Origin: Cyclobacteriaceae bacterium
GTDB taxonomy: Bacteria > Bacteroidota > Bacteroidia > Cytophagales > Cyclobacteriaceae
Assembly: GCA_019638395.1 (NCBI GenBank)
Contig: JAHBTX010000003.1
Coordinates: 248,001 to 312,000, forward strand
Direction: 5' to 3'
DNA length: 64,000 nt
Below, piece by piece: positions 415 to 39,574 of this stretch (positions within the stretch are counted from its first letter, which is position 1; each line of letters starts with the position of its first letter). Made by a program: the position numbers and the translations under genes. The notes below the pieces were generated by a model. That model had not been told where the DNA came from and searched no databases. It was given only the letters and a program-made list of their open reading frames with translations.

Positions 415-1911
415 GTGAAACAAGTGCTTTTTTTATTGGTGCTTTTAATAACTGGTTCGGCCCAGGCCCGACAGGTGGATAGCCTGTTAAACAAATTAAA
501 CCCCGATAGCCTCCTCACTTTAAAAGCCGATACGTTACTCACCAATAAAATCCAAAAAGCCGATTCAATTACCCGCGCCTTTCAGTCGGGCGTGGATAGT
601 GTGAAGGCAGATTATCAAAAACAGATTAATGCCATTAATAACGCACGCACTAAAGTGCAGCACAAAATAGATAGTCTTAATAACCTGCAAGTACCCACAC
701 AGCAGCTTACACAACAGTTAGACAGCCTCAACCGCTTGCAAACCGAAAAGCTGCAAGCGGCTACCACCAAAATCAACAATCTCAAATCAAAAGCAACCCA
801 GTCATTAGATGCCATTCAACTCCCCACCGAATTGCAAGGCCCGGTCAATAACCTGAAACAATCCATTAACGGTTTTGGAGTGTCCGGAATCAATACCCAG
901 AATTTATCAATCGGTAACGTGGATTTACCCAGTCTTACCAATGCCCAATTGCCTACACTCACCGATCAGATCAAGCTCGATCCCAACCTGAAAAACTTTT
1001 CAAGCGAACTGAATCAACTCAATGGCTTAGGCTACAACCTTGGCACCTATGCGCAAGATGTAAAGCAACTCACACAAGGCAACCTGAATGAAATAAAAAG
1101 TGTAGATAAACTTATCGAGAACAAAGTTTCTGGCATAGAAGGCATGGAGCAGTTGCAGGAAGGCAAGGCGCTGATGGATAAAGCCAAACCCGATTCGGCC
1201 GCATTAGCGAACATGGCTAAGGAACAAATTCTGAATGCAGCACAAGATCACTTTGCAGGCAAAGAAGCGGTATTGCAACAAGCGATGGATAAGATGAGCA
1301 AACTCAAGAATAGATACTCCGAAGTAAAGAGTTTAGCAGAGTTGCCCAAGCGTTTGCCTAATCCGCTCAAGGGTAAACCGTTTATCGAGCGGTTAATTCC
1401 CGGTGTCTCTTTTCAGATACAGAAGTCGCAGTTTTTGTTAGTGGACGTAAATCCAAACGTGCTCTATAAAATCCGACCCCGCTTATCAGCGGGTGCGGGT
1501 TGGAATGAACGCCTGCCCTTCGATGGCTGGAAGATTCAAGGCGGCAATGAGCGGGTGTATGGTCCACGGATGATCGTTCAGTTTTTGTGGACGAAGGGAA
1601 TTAATCTCCGGTTACAACCCGAAGTAATGAATACCACCATTCCACCACTCTTAGCCAGTCGTTTGGGATTCGATCCATCTTACCGCACGTGGATTACGAG
1701 TGTGTTTGCAGGAATAAAAAAAGAATTTACCGTTTTTAAATCTATAAAAGGAAACAGCGAACTACTTTATAACTTTCGGGATAAGGACGGCATGAGCCCC
1801 TATGCAGACAAAGTGAATGTGCGGTTTGGGTTTGAGTTTCCGATGAAGAAGAGCAAACCACTAGTCATCAACCGTACGGGTAAAAGGTTGACATTGTGTA
1901 TAAAGAGTTAG
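415..1911 (+). CDS. Exported coiled-coil protein of unknown function
   Basis: This 498-residue protein begins with a signal peptide (MKQVLFLLVLLITGSAQA). I chose the GTG at 415 over the in-frame TTG at 400 because it gives a normal signal peptide. Residues about 20-325 are rich in Gln, Asn, Lys, Leu and Ser with long helical stretches, including repeated DSL segments. The last 170 residues look like a beta-rich outer-membrane domain (PGVSFQIQKSQFLLVDVNPN, then paired aromatic strands). I do not recognise the family. The stop codon is provided by the left end of the MITE at 1908-2077, so the native C-terminus may have been slightly altered. Confidence 0.75.
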   Translation: MKQVLFLLVLLITGSAQARQVDSLLNKLNPDSLLTLKADTLLTNKIQKADSITRAFQSGVDSVKADYQKQINAINNARTKVQHKIDSLNNLQVPTQQLTQQLDSLNRLQTEKLQAATTKINNLKSKATQSLDAIQLPTELQGPVNNLKQSINGFGVSGINTQNLSIGNVDLPSLTNAQLPTLTDQIKLDPNLKNFSSELNQLNGLGYNLGTYAQDVKQLTQGNLNEIKSVDKLIENKVSGIEGMEQLQEGKALMDKAKPDSAALANMAKEQILNAAQDHFAGKEAVLQQAMDKMSKLKNRYSEVKSLAELPKRLPNPLKGKPFIERLIPGVSFQIQKSQFLLVDVNPNVLYKIRPRLSAGAGWNERLPFDGWKIQGGNERVYGPRMIVQFLWTKGINLRLQPEVMNTTIPPLLASRLGFDPSYRTWITSVFAGIKKEFTVFKSIKGNSELLYNFRDKDGMSPYADKVNVRFGFEFPMKKSKPLVINRTGKRLTLCIKS

Positions 1912-2077
1912 AACCCATCTCAAAAATAGATTTTGAAGAAATTTTCAAGTATTAGGCTATTATGCAAGGCGGCTTTTGCGGCCCATACCAGAGGGAGTCT
2001 GGGCAAAAAAGCCAACGCAGTAGAATAGCCAAAGACGCAGAAAATTTCCAGAAGGTATTTTTGAGATGGGTTCTAAT
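1908..2077. mobile_element. MITE-like element with 21-bp perfect inverted ends
   Basis: The left end TTAGAACCCATCTCAAAAATA (21 bp at 1908-1928) is repeated perfectly as its reverse complement at 2057-2077. The arms continue imperfectly inward: GAAATTTTC, GGCTATT and GGCTTTT segments recur inverted on both sides, so the 170-bp unit is nearly a whole palindrome. It encodes no transposase. If the true ends are GAACCC...GGGTTC, a TA dinucleotide flanks both sides, which would fit an IS630/Tc1-type target duplication. The family assignment is inference. Confidence 0.7.
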
Positions 2078-2105
2078 TATTAAAAACACAGCAATGGCGC
2101 CTAAA

Positions 2106-2166
2106 ATAGTTGGTCCACTTCCCAGCGGAGTCTCCCGTTTCGGGGACTCCGCGTTAATAGTTGGTC
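2106..2166. repeat. REP-like palindrome between 10-bp direct repeats
   Basis: The sequence ATAGTTGGTC occurs at 2106-2115 and again at 2157-2166. Between the copies lies a GC-rich hairpin (2125-2152) whose arms GCGGAGTC and GACTCCGC are joined through CCCG-TTT-CGGG, with one bulged base. The direct repeats could be a target duplication made by insertion of the 41-bp palindromic unit. The hairpin could also act as a terminator for the gene on the minus strand, which ends at 2188. Together with the MITE it fills the 1912-2187 gap. Confidence 0.55.
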
Positions 2167-2187
2167 TCTTGTTTCTTATGCAAAAAA

Positions 2188-3171
2188 TCAAGGAATCAAC
2201 ACCGTTGGATTAACAATCGTTACAGGTTTACCTGTTTGATAATAAGAAATGATATTTTCGGCAGCCAGCCGCGCCATACCGGTACGGGCTTCTACAGTAG
2301 CCGAACCTATGTGTGGCAACACGGCCACGCTGGACATTTCCAGTAATGGATTAGTTGCTTGCATCGGTTCGGGATTAGTTACATCTAACCCTGCACCCCA
2401 GATAGTTCCGTTTTGCAAGGCTTCAATCAAATCAGCTTCGTTGTGTACAGCACCGCGCGAGGTGTTAATAAATACTGCGGTGGTTTTCATTTTTGCAAAA
2501 GCTTGTTTGTTGAATAATCCTTTGGTTTCATCGGTCAACGCACTGTGTACCGAAAGTATATCGCTGTCGCGCAGCAGCGTATTGAAGTCAACGTACTGTG
2601 CGCCAAGTTCAGTTTCTGCCTTTGGGTTTCGGGTGCGATTGTGATAAATAACCTTCATACCATAAGCACCTTTGCAACGCTGCGCCATAATGCTGCCAAT
2701 GCGGCCTAAACCAAAAATGCCGAGTGTTTTGCCGGTTAACTCAAAGCCGAGATTTTTCAAAGGCTCGAATTGTTTCCATTCGCCCTTCTGAATCAACTTG
2801 TGGTGATAAAACATTTTGCGCGAAACGTTAATCATCAAAGCAAAAGCAACATCGGCAGTTGCTTCGCTCAATACATCGGGTGTATTACAAACCGGAATTT
2901 TATAATCGGTCGCGGCAGCGACATCTATATTATCGAACCCAACAGCAAACTGCGATACGATTTCCAAATGCTTGCAGGTTTCGAAGAATGAACGATCGAG
3001 TTTATTGGAGCCCAGCGAGAGTAATATGTTTGCCTGACGTGCGTATTGAGTCAGTTCATCTTTTGTCATGGCACGATCGCCTTGCCATACGGTTACATCA
3101 AAACCCGCTTGCTTCAGCATGTCTTCGGCAATGCCTGGGATAATACGGGTAACGAGTACTTTCTTTGACAT
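2188..3171 (-). CDS. D-2-hydroxyacid dehydrogenase (glyoxylate/hydroxypyruvate reductase type)
   Basis: This 327-residue cytosolic enzyme belongs to the D-isomer-specific 2-hydroxyacid dehydrogenase family, which reduces 2-oxoacids such as glyoxylate or hydroxypyruvate with NAD(P)H. The Rossmann motif GLGRIG is at residues 154-159. The catalytic Arg is at about 239 (NTSRG), Glu at 268 (NPEP) and His at 287 (LPHIGSAT). Length is normal for the family. It starts 4 bases after the M28 peptidase gene, so it is probably the last gene of that operon. The exact substrate cannot be read from sequence. Confidence 0.9.
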   Translation of the reverse strand: MSKKVLVTRIIPGIAEDMLKQAGFDVTVWQGDRAMTKDELTQYARQANILLSLGSNKLDRSFFETCKHLEIVSQFAVGFDNIDVAAATDYKIPVCNTPDVLSEATADVAFALMINVSRKMFYHHKLIQKGEWKQFEPLKNLGFELTGKTLGIFGLGRIGSIMAQRCKGAYGMKVIYHNRTRNPKAETELGAQYVDFNTLLRDSDILSVHSALTDETKGLFNKQAFAKMKTTAVFINTSRGAVHNEADLIEALQNGTIWGAGLDVTNPEPMQATNPLLEMSSVAVLPHIGSATVEARTGMARLAAENIISYYQTGKPVTIVNPTVLIP

Positions 3172-3175
3172 GAAA

Positions 3176-5257
3176 TTATTTCGCTAATGTTGTAATGTTC
3201 TCTAACTTATTCTTTAAACGTGTAATAGCCGCTAAATATTTTTGCTCCCACTTAGTTAAGTTGGCTGTTGACTTATTGGCTACTTCATATTGAAAGCCCG
3301 GCAAGATAGCAGAAGCGTAGCCACTGTACGGATCGGGCGATGCATACAATGATTTATACCAGTGGCCAAACGGCATTCCTTCCTGATCAATCCATTGCCT
3401 TTCCAATAACAACAACTCGGCATTAATGGTTTTCAGTTGCGCTGTATTGGCAGACTTTAATGCTGCCTCGCAAGCCTCACCAACTTTCTTTAATTCATCG
3501 GAAGCTTTCAATAATGTTTCGAATGAAAATTTGTTTTCGGATTTATCGTAAGCAGCAATGGCTTTTTGGATGCCTTCGAAGTGGGTGCGCAAATCGGTTC
3601 CGTACCGACTAACATTATACGGTATCACATCGGCATTAGCCAAACGCAAAGCGGCAATACCAAATACCCGTTCCACTAATGGTCCCATGTTAAATTGCGG
3701 ATCAGAAAATTTTTCATAGAAATAAAAGGTATCATGATTAGAATGATACATAGATGGGCCGCCCGTGCCACCACTCCACGAAGGAATGCCCACGTGTGTG
3801 TAGAAGGCAATGTGATCGGAACCACCACCTAAGTTGCCAATAGGAGGAGCCGGGCTTTGTTTGCGCCAATGATCGTAAACACTTTTTGCTGAATCGGGAT
3901 ACGGAATCACTTTCGTGGATTCGATAATCAATCCTTTCAACGATGGGCTTGATGCTCCGCCAAAGTTTCGTCCACTAACGGCACCATCGGCATTAAAATA
4001 CGCTACACCTTTTGCATTCAACTCATCCCGAAATTGTTCTACCCATTCGGTTGAGCCAATTACGCCTTGCTCTTCGGCATCCCAGTGTGCAATCTTAATT
4101 GTGCGTTTGGGTTTGTAACCCGCTTGAGAAAGTTTACCGAGCGATTCACTTAATGACAATAACATGGCGGTGCCACTGTTCGGATCGGTTGCTCCGTGAC
4201 CCCATGCATCGTAATGCGAGCCGGCAATAATCCATTCGTTGGGCGATTCAGAACCAACTAACGTACCTACAACATTATATACCCGTTGAATTTTTCTTTC
4301 TTGCTGCACACTCACTCTTACCTTTAAATCAGATCCGCCTTCTAATCGGTAGGTATAAGGTAAACCACCTTGCCAACCTGCCGGAACAACTTTACCCTTC
4401 ATGCGCTCAAAAATTTCTTTGGCCGAACCATAAGGAAGAGGTAACACCGGAATAGAATGCATGCCGCTTACTTCTTCCGGTTTTTTACGAACAATTTTTT
4501 TCTTGCCATCAATGGGTAATGCCGGTTCAAATGGTGTGAGCGGATCGCCCGTCCAATCGGCTGTAAGTAACGAGCCGCGTTGAATACTGCTTTCATTAAA
4601 GTACGGGCCTTCCGGATACACCAACCCTTTGGTATAACCGCTATCGCCCGGATCGGTAAAGATGATTAAGCCTGCTGCCCCAGCCGCTTGTGCATACTTG
4701 GCTTTGTACCCGCGAAAGTTTCCGCCATAGCGGGCAATTACAATTTTACCTTTTACGGAGATGCCCATCGCGGCAAGCTTTTCAAAATCTTCCCTGCGAC
4801 CATAGTTGGCATACACCACTTCAGCGGTTACATCGCCCGAGCCGGTGTAGGCATTAAAGCCTACCGGTAAATCCGGATTGGCCGTAAACGGATCTTCGTG
4901 GTGGATGTATTCTTTGTTGTTAAGCGGAATGCGCACCGGTTCTACAACTTCCGCGTATGCGGTGCCGGGCATTACCGGTAAATAAATATCGTATGGAAAA
5001 ATTTCTACTTGAAAGCCCGCTTTACGCATGACTTCGGCCATGTAATCGCGCACGCGCTCGTTGGCTTTGCTTCCGGCAATGTGCGGTTCTTTGGTAAGTT
5101 CTTTTAAATGATTTTTGTAGCGCTCGCTCTGCTGTTGTTGCAGAAAAACTTCTTCGGCTTTGGTTTGCTTAGAAGAACTGGTGGGTGAAAAGCCATAGTA
5201 GGTTTGGCTGAAAGCCGGAAGAGATAATACTAAAAACAAGCCGAAAAGAGTTTTCAT
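3176..5257 (-). CDS. Secreted M28 peptidase, glutamate carboxypeptidase II (PSMA) type
   Basis: The 693-residue protein starts with a signal peptide (MKTLFGLFLVLSLPAFSQ); an upstream ATG at 5278 would only add residues before it. The order is an N-terminal segment, a protease-associated insert (about 110-340), the M28 zinc peptidase core, and a C-terminal transferrin-receptor-like dimerisation domain. Zinc ligands are visible in HYDAWGHGATDPNSG, WDAEEQGVIGSTEW, GGGSDHIAF and YHSNHDTFYFYEKF, which parallel PSMA closely. It probably removes C-terminal acidic residues or cleaves small peptides in the periplasm. The gene lies 78 bases after the lipoprotein gene and 4 bases before the dehydrogenase. 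Confidence 0.9.
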   Translation of the reverse strand: MKTLFGLFLVLSLPAFSQTYYGFSPTSSSKQTKAEEVFLQQQQSERYKNHLKELTKEPHIAGSKANERVRDYMAEVMRKAGFQVEIFPYDIYLPVMPGTAYAEVVEPVRIPLNNKEYIHHEDPFTANPDLPVGFNAYTGSGDVTAEVVYANYGRREDFEKLAAMGISVKGKIVIARYGGNFRGYKAKYAQAAGAAGLIIFTDPGDSGYTKGLVYPEGPYFNESSIQRGSLLTADWTGDPLTPFEPALPIDGKKKIVRKKPEEVSGMHSIPVLPLPYGSAKEIFERMKGKVVPAGWQGGLPYTYRLEGGSDLKVRVSVQQERKIQRVYNVVGTLVGSESPNEWIIAGSHYDAWGHGATDPNSGTAMLLSLSESLGKLSQAGYKPKRTIKIAHWDAEEQGVIGSTEWVEQFRDELNAKGVAYFNADGAVSGRNFGGASSPSLKGLIIESTKVIPYPDSAKSVYDHWRKQSPAPPIGNLGGGSDHIAFYTHVGIPSWSGGTGGPSMYHSNHDTFYFYEKFSDPQFNMGPLVERVFGIAALRLANADVIPYNVSRYGTDLRTHFEGIQKAIAAYDKSENKFSFETLLKASDELKKVGEACEAALKSANTAQLKTINAELLLLERQWIDQEGMPFGHWYKSLYASPDPYSGYASAILPGFQYEVANKSTANLTKWEQKYLAAITRLKNKLENITTLAK

Positions 5258-36509: not shown

Positions 36510-36522
36510 AGGTTAAAATTAG

Positions 36523-36596
36523 TGGGCCCGGAGGGATTCAAACCCCCAACCTTCTGATCCGTAGTCAGATGCTCTATTCAGTTAAGCTACGGGCCC
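36523..36596 (-). tRNA. tRNA-Arg (anticodon ACG)
   Basis: The cloverleaf is complete on the minus strand: acceptor GGGCCCG/CGGGCCC with discriminator A, D-arm GCTTAACTGAATAGAGC, anticodon stem TCTGA/TCAGA with loop CTACGGA (anticodon ACG, read as ICG after editing), and T-arm with loop TTTGAAT. The CCA end is not encoded. A consensus promoter lies just upstream and a terminator just downstream, so it is a single-gene unit. Confidence 0.96.
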
Positions 36597-36607: not shown

Positions 36608-36638
36608 CAAAGGTAATTAAATAATGATTTTTGCCAAA
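36608..36638 (-). promoter_or_regulatory. Consensus promoter of tRNA-Arg
   Basis: On the minus strand the sequence reads TTTG (TTG core), 19 bases, TACCTTTG. Both boxes match the Bacteroidota housekeeping consensus perfectly. The -7 box ends 11 bases before the mature tRNA 5' end. It is one of the two best promoter matches in the window and serves as an internal standard for the others. Confidence 0.85.
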
Positions 36639-36749
36639 TCTCTGGAATGAGAAAGCCGGCCATAACCTCTTAAAGGATTTTTAGGGCATTCAAGATCATT
36701 TCACTTTCTGTTTGTTTGGTATTATCTTACCAACAATAAAAATTTTCAG

Positions 36750-38098
36750 ATGCTGAAATTAGTAGATGACGAAATAGGGTTAAATCCTTCAATAATTGGA
36801 ACATCCGAAATAAAAGATTGGGGAACATTCAAGGATTCACTTAGGGCTCCAGTCCATAGATGGTTCACGTACCCTGCGGGATTCTCATATAAAGCTGTAG
36901 AAGCAAGTATAAACCTCTACGGAATAGATGAAGGTGATGTCATATATGATCCATTTATGGGAAGTGCAACAACAAATGTTGTAGCTAAAACTATGGGAAT
37001 AAATTCTTACGGAGTAGAGGCACATCCATTTGTATATAAATAGCTAAGGCTAAATTAGAATGGTCTTTGAACCAAGATGAAATTTCAGAGGGGCTAAGTA
37101 AAATTGAAAAAAGTGTTATTTCTGGAAGCAAAAAATTTGATGATGAAAAGAAATGCCTCAAAGATATTTTTCCTGAATTAATTCTTAAATGTTTTGATGA
37201 TCGAAAGCTGTTTGAACTTCTATTAATAAGAAATACTATAAACTCATCAAGTCTTAGTTCAAAAACAAAAAACTTTCTATTTGTCGCACTGGTATCATTG
37301 CTGAGAGAGGTTTCAAGTGCTGCAACTGGTTGGCCCTATATTGCGCCTAAAAAGATCAAAACGTCATCAAAGTCAAAAGATGTTTTAAGAGAATATAGAC
37401 GTTAGGTGAATTCTATGATGGAGGACATTTTTTTCATAAAACTTACGGCTTCTCCACTATCCGATCAAACTTCTCAAACTATTTTGAATGGCGACTCCAG
37501 GGATACAAGCCACACCATTAATAGTTTATCTGTTGATCATGTGTTTACTTCTCCTCCTTACTTAAATAATTTTGATTATGCAGATAGGACACGTCTAGAA
37601 ATGTATTTCTTTGGAGAAGCTCAAAATTGGTCTGACATAACTAAAACTGTCAGGTCTAAACTTATAACATCTGCAACAACCCAAATTTCGAGAAGTGATT
37701 TAAAATATATCTTATCTGATAAAATTAGAGACGCAAGCCCTGAGGTTTATGCTTTCCTAAATCAATCAATCTTTAGATTAGGGGAGTTGAGAAAGCAAAA
37801 GGGTGGAAAAAAGAGTTATGACCATCTTGTATCAGGTTACTTCAATGATATGTTTTTAGTTTTAGCCGATGTTTACAGGGTACTAAAAAATGGGAAGGTT
37901 GCTGTTTTTGTATTAGGTGATTCAGCTCCCTATGGGGTTCATATTCCAACTGACGAAATGCTTGGAAAGCTTGGTTGCTCGATTGGATTTAAGAGGTTTG
38001 AAATCCAATTGCTGCGAACTCGGGGAGGTAAGTGGAGCGGCAATACACAACGTCATCACGTTGGTTTACGGGAAACAATTTTAACGTTATACAAATAA
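36750..38098 (+). pseudogene. Broken DNA methyltransferase of a restriction-modification system
   Basis: Three pieces of one methyltransferase lie in a row. The first (36750-37043) holds the cofactor motif DPFMGSATT (residues 67-75) and stops at TAG 37041. Adding one A to the AAA before it restores IAKAKLEWSL, the expected helix after motif I, so one base appears deleted. The middle piece continues to an in-frame TAG at 37403-37405, after which the same frame goes on through the catalytic SPPY motif (37550-37561) to 38098. Motif order (cofactor first, then SPPY) suggests an N4-cytosine or N6-adenine enzyme. The region is clearly more AT-rich than its neighbours, a sign of transfer. Confidence 0.8.
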
Positions 38099-38875
38099 TG
38101 GCTAATCACGCAAGTGCAATAGGTGAAGCTGTTGGCAATTTAATAGAGTCTGAAGTTAAGAATATAGTTCAAAATGCTTTAGTAGGAACGGAGTTCTATG
38201 TTGATATTGGCGGTATCAGACGAGGGGTTAGGGATCATTCCAAGCTTTTATTGGTGAATGATACAGGTAACTCGTATCAAATTGACGTTGTAGTAGAAGA
38301 TAAAGAAAAAAAATCCCATTGTACTTATTGAGTGTAAATATATTAGATATAAAAAGCATAATAGAGATAAAGCGTCTTGGACATGTGTAGCTCATTATAA
38401 ACTACGTACAACTTATCCAACTGTAAAGAAGAGTATTGCTGTATTAATTGGGGATTAGACAGCGCCTTCAAAAAAACTAATGAAGAGTTTTGGGGTTGAG
38501 TGTATAGAGATACCATTTCAAAATTTATCTTCAATTTTGAAAAAGTACGGGGTAAATTTTGAGTGGGATGAAAAAGATAGGATTACCCCTGAGAAAAGTT
38601 TGAAAGCATTTAGAAGTCTCTCAGAGACTAAAAAGAAGAATATTGCTAAAGAATGCTTAACTCCTTTCTCAGGTCAGCTAGTAGATAAAATTAAAACAGC
38701 CGTTGCTGCGTCTGAGATTCTTCCTCGGAATGTGCAGCAAATCGAGTTGTTGGTTAAGACAGATAAAGATGAATATGTATTGAAGAAATTCCTAAACGTA
38801 ACAGAGGTCATTCATTATCTACTTTCTCTAACGGATCAAAAGAAAGATGTTGGAAGGATTATAGGTAAAAATTAG
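38098..38875 (+). pseudogene. Broken PD-(D/E)xK restriction endonuclease
   Basis: The gene starts at ATG 38098, overlapping the methyltransferase stop (TAATG). Frame 1 runs through YQIDVVVED and is broken in a run of eight A at 38306-38313. Removing one A continues as NPIVLIECKYIRYKKHNRDK, where Asp (38284-38286) and E-C-K (38330-38338) form a PD-(D/E)xK nuclease site. A second lesion, an in-frame TAG at 38456-38458 (IGD*TAPSKKL), may have been TGG. The C-terminal part continues to 38875. With both breaks repaired it would be about 258 residues. It pairs with the upstream methyltransferase as a type II-like system. Confidence 0.78.
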
Positions 38876-38899
38876 TCAATGCAAACCTTTGATACTAAA

Positions 38900-39574
38900 T
38901 CAATTCAAAACAAAATTCAAAGGTAAGGTCATTCTTACTTTTACTGGCTTGCCCCGCTGACGGCCCGGTTGCCATTTAGTTAAAGCCAGCACCCGCATCG
39001 CTTCTTCATCGCAACCACCGCCAATGCCTTTAATCACTTTCATATCTGTTACCTGGCCATTTTTATCAATAATAAATTCTACAAAAACTTTGCCCTGGGT
39101 GTTGGCATACTGCGCGCGCTTAGGATACTTCAGGTTTTTACCCACGAATTTGTAAAAACCTTCAAAGCCACCCTCGGGTATTGGTGCTACTTCGGGGGCA
39201 ATCAAAGGTTCGTCCGTGGGTTCTGTTACAAGCACTGCTGAATCAATGCCAATTGAAACAACAGGTTGATCGATGGTAATAGCATCCGGCATAGCTGCTG
39301 TTGTTTCAATAGTAGTAACAAAGTTTACAACAGGTTTAATAACGATTGGATTAGGTTGTTTAACCTTAGGTTGCGCTGCGGGTAGTAACTCAGCTTGAAG
39401 CTCGAATGTTCCATCATAAATGGGATCATCGAATGCGCATATTATGGATTCTTTCTTTTTGCTGCGCCATTCAAACGCCATTATGGCTAATGCAACACTT
39501 AGTGTTAACCCAATCAGAAAAAATTTTCCCGATTGCCGATGTAGATCTTGTTTCGGATTCTTCTTGGCTTCCAT
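38900..39574 (-). CDS. TonB-family energy transducer
   Basis: The 224-residue protein has a short cytoplasmic N-terminus, one membrane helix (FFLIGLTLSVALAIMAF, about 18-34), a periplasmic linker rich in Pro, Val and Ile, and a C-terminal TonB domain (LKYPKRAQYANTQGKVFVEF, DMKVIKGIGGGCDEEAMRVL). TonB proteins pass proton-motive energy to outer-membrane transporters. No exbB or exbD is nearby. It is 46 bases after a tiny membrane protein and an ECF sigma gene, so it may belong to their regulon. Confidence 0.88.
   Translation of the reverse strand: MEAKKNPKQDLHRQSGKFFLIGLTLSVALAIMAFEWRSKKKESIICAFDDPIYDGTFELQAELLPAAQPKVKQPNPIVIKPVVNFVTTIETTAAMPDAITIDQPVVSIGIDSAVLVTEPTDEPLIAPEVAPIPEGGFEGFYKFVGKNLKYPKRAQYANTQGKVFVEFIIDKNGQVTDMKVIKGIGGGCDEEAMRVLALTKWQPGRQRGKPVKVRMTLPLNFVLN

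Follow-up and report, generated by a model that had tools for sequence, protein, structure and literature searches.

Positions 36750 to 38875 of a 64,000-nucleotide stretch of a Cyclobacteriaceae bacterium genome (hereafter, the window) hold two overlapping genes on the + strand, a DNA methyltransferase followed by a PD-(D/E)xK-like nuclease, and both are broken. We asked what this pair once was, whether its breaks are real, and how it came to lie where it does.

Layout and identity of the two genes

The original prediction placed a decayed restriction-modification (R-M) module at this locus, with its genes joined at a TAATG and interrupted by four lesions. Our reading of the open reading frames agreed with the coordinates, the overlap, and the lesions: each gene has a single frame change and a single in-frame TAG. 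In the methylase, the frame of 36750 stays open as far as a TAG at 37041, and a different frame (IAKAKLEW...) takes over from 37040. This gives piece 1 (36750 to 37040, + strand, 97 aa), which carries AdoMet motif I as DPFMGSATT, and, beyond the frame change, piece 2 (37040 to 37402, + strand, 121 aa). The second frame meets an in-frame TAG at 37403 to 37405 (+ strand), and coding continues from 37406 as piece 3 (37406 to 38098, + strand, 230 aa), which contains the SPPY motif and runs to the natural stop TAA at 38096 to 38098. The nuclease ATG at 38098 shares one base with this TAA. Nuclease piece 1 (38098 to 38304, + strand) covers the N terminus and carries the residue presumed to be the Asp of PD-(D/E)xK; the frame then changes near a run of eight A residues (38306 to 38313). 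Piece 2 (38306 to 38455, + strand, 50 aa) holds the E-C-K core and is followed by a TAG at 38456 to 38458 (+ strand), and piece 3 (38459 to 38875, + strand, 138 aa) extends to the natural stop. DPFMGSATT, SPPY, and the D...E-C-K residues were all found where they had been predicted.

We searched the six pieces one by one against Pfam, PADLOC, and NCBIfam profiles. Methylase piece 1 matched the Pfam family N6_N4_Mtase (E value 5.4e-10), as did piece 3 below the Pfam cut-off (E value 4.9e-5); piece 1 aligned with the end of the profile and piece 3 with its start, so motif I precedes SPPY. PADLOC type II profiles matched five of the six pieces. The best E values for methylase pieces 1, 2, and 3 were 1.9e-14 (an MTase_II profile), 2e-9, and 9e-37, the latter two from PDLC03306 (MTase_II), which was also the second profile for piece 1. 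PDLC03525 (REase_II) was the top profile for nuclease piece 1 (38098 to 38328, E value 9.2e-8) and, weakly, for nuclease piece 2 (E value 0.024). Nuclease piece 3 had no PADLOC match, nuclease pieces 1 and 2 had no Pfam match, methylase piece 2 had no Pfam or NCBIfam family match (best Pfam E value 0.13), and none of the six pieces matched NCBIfam above its cut-offs. A match of nuclease piece 3 to the Pfam family DUF2067 (E value 0.0011) was below the cut-off and was taken as chance. Against solved structures, a methylase profile matched eight sequences, only across the motif I region, and a nuclease profile had no credible match (three matches, best E value 0.29). Judged from these profiles and motifs, the pair would have encoded an amino-methyltransferase of the N6_N4_Mtase family and a PD-(D/E)xK-like endonuclease, presumably with type II biochemistry.

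Relatives with open frames

Methylase piece 3 was scanned against genome contigs, which yielded eight loci (L007 to L014) out of 71 candidate stretches, all in records titled MAG, with tblastn E values of about 1e-86 to 1e-98, far beyond chance. In all eight, the methylase is a single open frame of 447 to 496 aa, along which the three methylase pieces of the window align in order (61-76% identity for piece 1, 41-50% for piece 2, and 57-64% for piece 3). In all eight, a gene of 240 to 280 aa starts 1 to 3 bases past the methylase stop; the TAATG overlap is thus not conserved. This downstream gene matched nuclease pieces of the window in seven of the eight loci by tblastn, with piece 2 at 58-64% identity in seven and piece 3 at 25-31% in six. 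In the alignment to these relatives, the pieces are continuous across both frame changes, and each TAG occupies one aligned column in which the intact relatives have an ordinary residue. With intact homologous pairs at eight loci, the proposal that these genes were once whole gains the support of real counterparts.

The pairs at L008 to L014 (record titles Anaerolinea, Chloroflexi, Thiomargarita, Chloroflexus, Anaerolineales, and "bacterium") have the gene order and motifs seen in the window, but both of their genes are open and do not overlap, and their nucleases are only 22-32% identical to that of the window outside the core. The L008 methylase matches PDLC03306 over residues 22 to 443 of 450 (E value 9.1e-68) and the L008 nuclease matches PDLC03525 (E value 2.7e-10); compared with the systems that these profiles describe, the copy in the window has four breaks. 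The window has the adjacent M and R genes of a type II R-M system, in the same order as in all eight relatives, and its nuclease has D, E, and K at invariant columns, spread across two frames. Complete reading frames are absent, and AdoMet-binding and catalytic motifs, which the eight relatives combine in one protein, lie on separate fragments with an Ala for Gly in motif I. The locus is a relic rather than a working member of the class.

More distant homologues of both genes were found together on each of five plasmids of Erwinia aphidicola (NZ_CP142283.1 plus four more), on which the methylase is 31-34% identical to that of L008 and the nuclease, annotated as a hypothetical protein, is 27% identical to that of L011. 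These five plasmids are typed as mobilizable by PLSDB. Among the matches listed for viruses, phages, and plasmids, we found no close relative. Viral contigs gave at least 144 relatives, of which 80 were kept (best E value among the matches listed 5e-9, mostly short segments). Phages gave 4 records, all below 60% identity, and plasmids gave 44 records for the methylase, all below 60% identity (20 of the 44 viewed), and 5 for the nuclease.

The two genes differ in how much of the family they retain. Among the eight relatives, 181 methylase columns do not vary; the window agrees at 165 of them, differs at 15, and has a gap at one. The 15 differences include the second glycine of motif I, which is Ala in the window and Gly in all eight intact relatives. 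For the nuclease, L007 was excluded; of the 90 columns that do not vary in the other seven relatives, the window keeps 55, loses 32, and has a gap at 3, a count in which the losses are perhaps slightly overstated, as piece 1 was extended a few residues beyond the frame change in the alignment. The D, E, and K are among the residues kept and, going by the motif, would be the catalytic ones. As a yardstick, the columns invariant in the relatives other than L014 number 224 for the methylase and 116 for the nuclease; L014 retains 181 and 90 of them, and the window 197 and 61. This places the window methylase nearer to the family than that of L014 and the window nuclease further from it. Mean identity between the nuclease of the window and those of the relatives is 59% in the core and 29% and 26% in the flanking parts, compared with 83%, 62%, and 54% among the relatives themselves; the methylase pieces stand at 46-65%. 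The window nuclease (38098 to 38875) has thus diverged from the relatives much further than the methylase has; its core is conserved and its ends are variable.

The core would not have escaped neutral decay, and much of this divergence therefore probably predates inactivation. Part of it could instead be older decay, considering that only 55 of 90 invariant columns are kept. The methylase and nuclease may also have had separate histories before the decay, a divergent nuclease having been exchanged onto a conserved methylase; we consider this rather unlikely, and L007 also hints at it. If true, it would mean that the family swaps nucleases and keeps its methylase. At L007 (positions 1478 to 3546), a methylase 68% identical to that of L008 is followed by a nuclease distantly related to the usual one of the family. 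This downstream gene had no Pfam or PADLOC match, and in the single comparison with L011 it was 30% identical over 124 residues (E value 6e-17).

We also modeled the L008 nuclease, using seven relatives, and obtained a mean pLDDT of 73 and a pTM of 0.68, with two of the five models below 50. A Foldseek search of this model against the PDB placed 1y88 first (E value 1.5e-5, TM-score 0.32 by query), followed by MspJI (E value 7.1e-4, TM-score 0.24), and these were the sole matches with an E value up to 0.001. Both presumably contain a PD-(D/E)xK domain. With TM-scores this low, the predicted model supports a PD-(D/E)xK fold and no closer affiliation.

Lesions, residual activity, and timing of decay

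Broken methyltransferase genes can be artifacts. According to PMC3488263, the two annotated frameshifts of the methyltransferase MJ1209 of Methanocaldococcus jannaschii were sequencing errors, and one frame change in the window sits in the eight-A run. We therefore weighed the possibility that both genes are intact and that all four lesions are errors of sequencing or consensus. We compared the window with 70 kb of the congeneric genome G060, in which 34 of 61 primary ORFs matched the window at ≥55% identity (weaker matches were dropped). All 34 matched neighbor genes were unbroken, each in one frame and free of stops, over 37,341 bases. When overlapping ORFs were left in, stops or frames were flagged in 13 of 50 matched ORFs; all 13 overlap a longer matched ORF, 12 of them on the opposite strand. 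The contrast between four lesions within 2.1 kb and a lesion-free 37 kb makes a general error rate unlikely but carries no weight against a local one. Two of the four lesions are moreover nonsense codons rather than frame changes, and the methylase is additionally substituted at the invariant glycine of motif I. We consider sequencing error very improbable as the explanation, and the lesions are most likely real. Reading TAG as a sense codon was also rejected: TAG is the stop of 5 of the window's 48 primary ORFs with a length of 150 aa or more (this set, chosen by length, includes methylase piece 3, which ends in TAA), and recoding would leave the frame changes in place. PMC3488263 describes 74 R-M systems, drawn from REBASE, whose methyltransferase genes are corrupted by frameshifts, truncation, or premature stops and which have full-length orthologous systems elsewhere; as described there, the nuclease of those systems is full length, whereas in the window both genes are broken.

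The original prediction allowed for residual methylase activity, which the evidence does not support. Residual methylation is unlikely, since one fragment carries motif I and another carries SPPY, and motif I has Ala where all eight relatives have Gly. Separately translated fragments could in principle assemble into an active or regulatory methylase, in keeping with the 165 of 181 invariant columns retained and with piece 3 (230 aa) being an ORF that starts at a GTG directly past the TAG. A third fragment, however, separates those with motif I and SPPY, the invariant glycine of motif I is lost, and the nuclease is similarly broken, which a regulated split would not require. Nor are promoter-like sites enriched between 36400 and 39000 (7 sites, compared with 8.3 in shuffled sequence, sd 3.1). 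We regard such a split enzyme as extremely improbable and keep to the reading of an inactivated pair. Terminator-like sites in the same interval numbered 4, all on the - strand, against a shuffled mean of 1.3.

To place the decay in time, we considered how readily stops arise: 5.2% of single-base changes in the open pieces yield a stop, or 1.7% if transitions alone are counted. Two stops would then imply some 40 to 120 point changes after selection was lifted, or about 2-6% of the 2.1 kb, an estimate that is based on two events and holds to an order of magnitude only. A fairly recent decay is plausible and would be roughly bounded by these values.

Insertion site and history of the cassette

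We examined nine stretches across the site from eight congeneric genomes, picked for good flank matches, and the insert was absent from all nine. In eight of these, with both flanks aligned by blastn, homology to the window stops at 36638 to 36651 and restarts at 38854 to 38922, and the flanks lie on one contig, tens of bases apart or with overlapping ends. In L047, the remaining stretch, the TonB part is unaligned and the distance between the aligned flanks is too short for the genes. Together with the junction sequences, these alignments place the insert at approximately 36640 to 38901. Its left neighbor is a tRNA-Arg(acg) gene (36522 to 36596, - strand, ARAGORN) and its right neighbor is a TonB-like gene (38900 to 39574, - strand, Pfam TonB_C E value 6.6e-21), and both are also present at the empty site of the congeners. 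Both flanks are conserved in the genus and are not always adjacent; in G011, the left and right flank matches are ~18 kb apart on one contig.

At an E value of 1e-20, a search of 62 genomes of the genus detected the methylase in one, the window's own. At an E value of 0.001, it was found in 5 of 58 genomes, one of them the window's own and the other four (two of them congeners) weak matches of 23-30% identity. Across the class, 5 of 395 genomes had it at an E value of 1e-20, again including the window's own, with the other four 38-42% identical. From these comparisons, we interpret the locus as a lineage-specific insertion of about 2.2 kb, a horizontal gain that later decayed.

Transfer had originally been argued from AT-rich composition; the lack of the insert in congeners is a stronger argument, and the one from composition is weakened. 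The G+C content of the insert (36652 to 38878) is 35.0%, compared with a mean of 43.4% (sd 2.1) for the 48 primary ORFs, methylase piece 3 being included in that set by its length. Both R-M genes also fall below the retrieved contig stretch in G+C content at all eight loci L007 to L014, by about 6 to 20 points. Because low G+C accompanies the family in all eight relatives, it says little about the donor and is weak evidence of transfer.

We saw no further gene within the insert. Of ten flanking proteins, nine had Pfam matches, none of them to a mobile-element family, and none of the six pieces matched such a family. The features of an integrative mobile element at a tRNA, namely an integrase or transposase and a duplicated end of the tRNA, were not found, and inspection of the junction sequences by eye revealed no duplication. 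Integrase-mediated insertion at the 3' end of the tRNA was rejected, given the position of the insert at the 5' side and the lack of an integrase among the Pfam matches. A pair of 14-nt direct repeats (36510 to 36523 and 38863 to 38876, 93% identity) was attributed to chance, because the tRNA and the stretch to 36638, which lie between the copies, are common to the empty sites.

We are confident in the overall explanation that a compact type II-like R-M cassette was inserted here and was later inactivated by frame changes and nonsense mutations. Within the lineage of this species, the two-gene cassette would have entered between the tRNA-Arg gene and the TonB-like gene; no integrase or transposase gene was detected next to it. 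The intact pair would have methylated a single DNA site and cleaved foreign DNA wherever that site lacked methylation. Inactivation would have followed through two frame changes and two nonsense mutations. The nuclease was probably silenced no later than the methylase, because losing the methylase first would have left the DNA of the host itself exposed.

The locus is an ordinary decayed type II-like R-M pair, and its fate is an ordinary one for such genes. It shows cleanly how a defense cassette is gained and lost, with a placed insertion, empty sites in sister species, open-frame relatives in unrelated records, and both genes inactivated. Such a life cycle is known for R-M systems, and the value of the locus is as an example of it rather than as a discovery.
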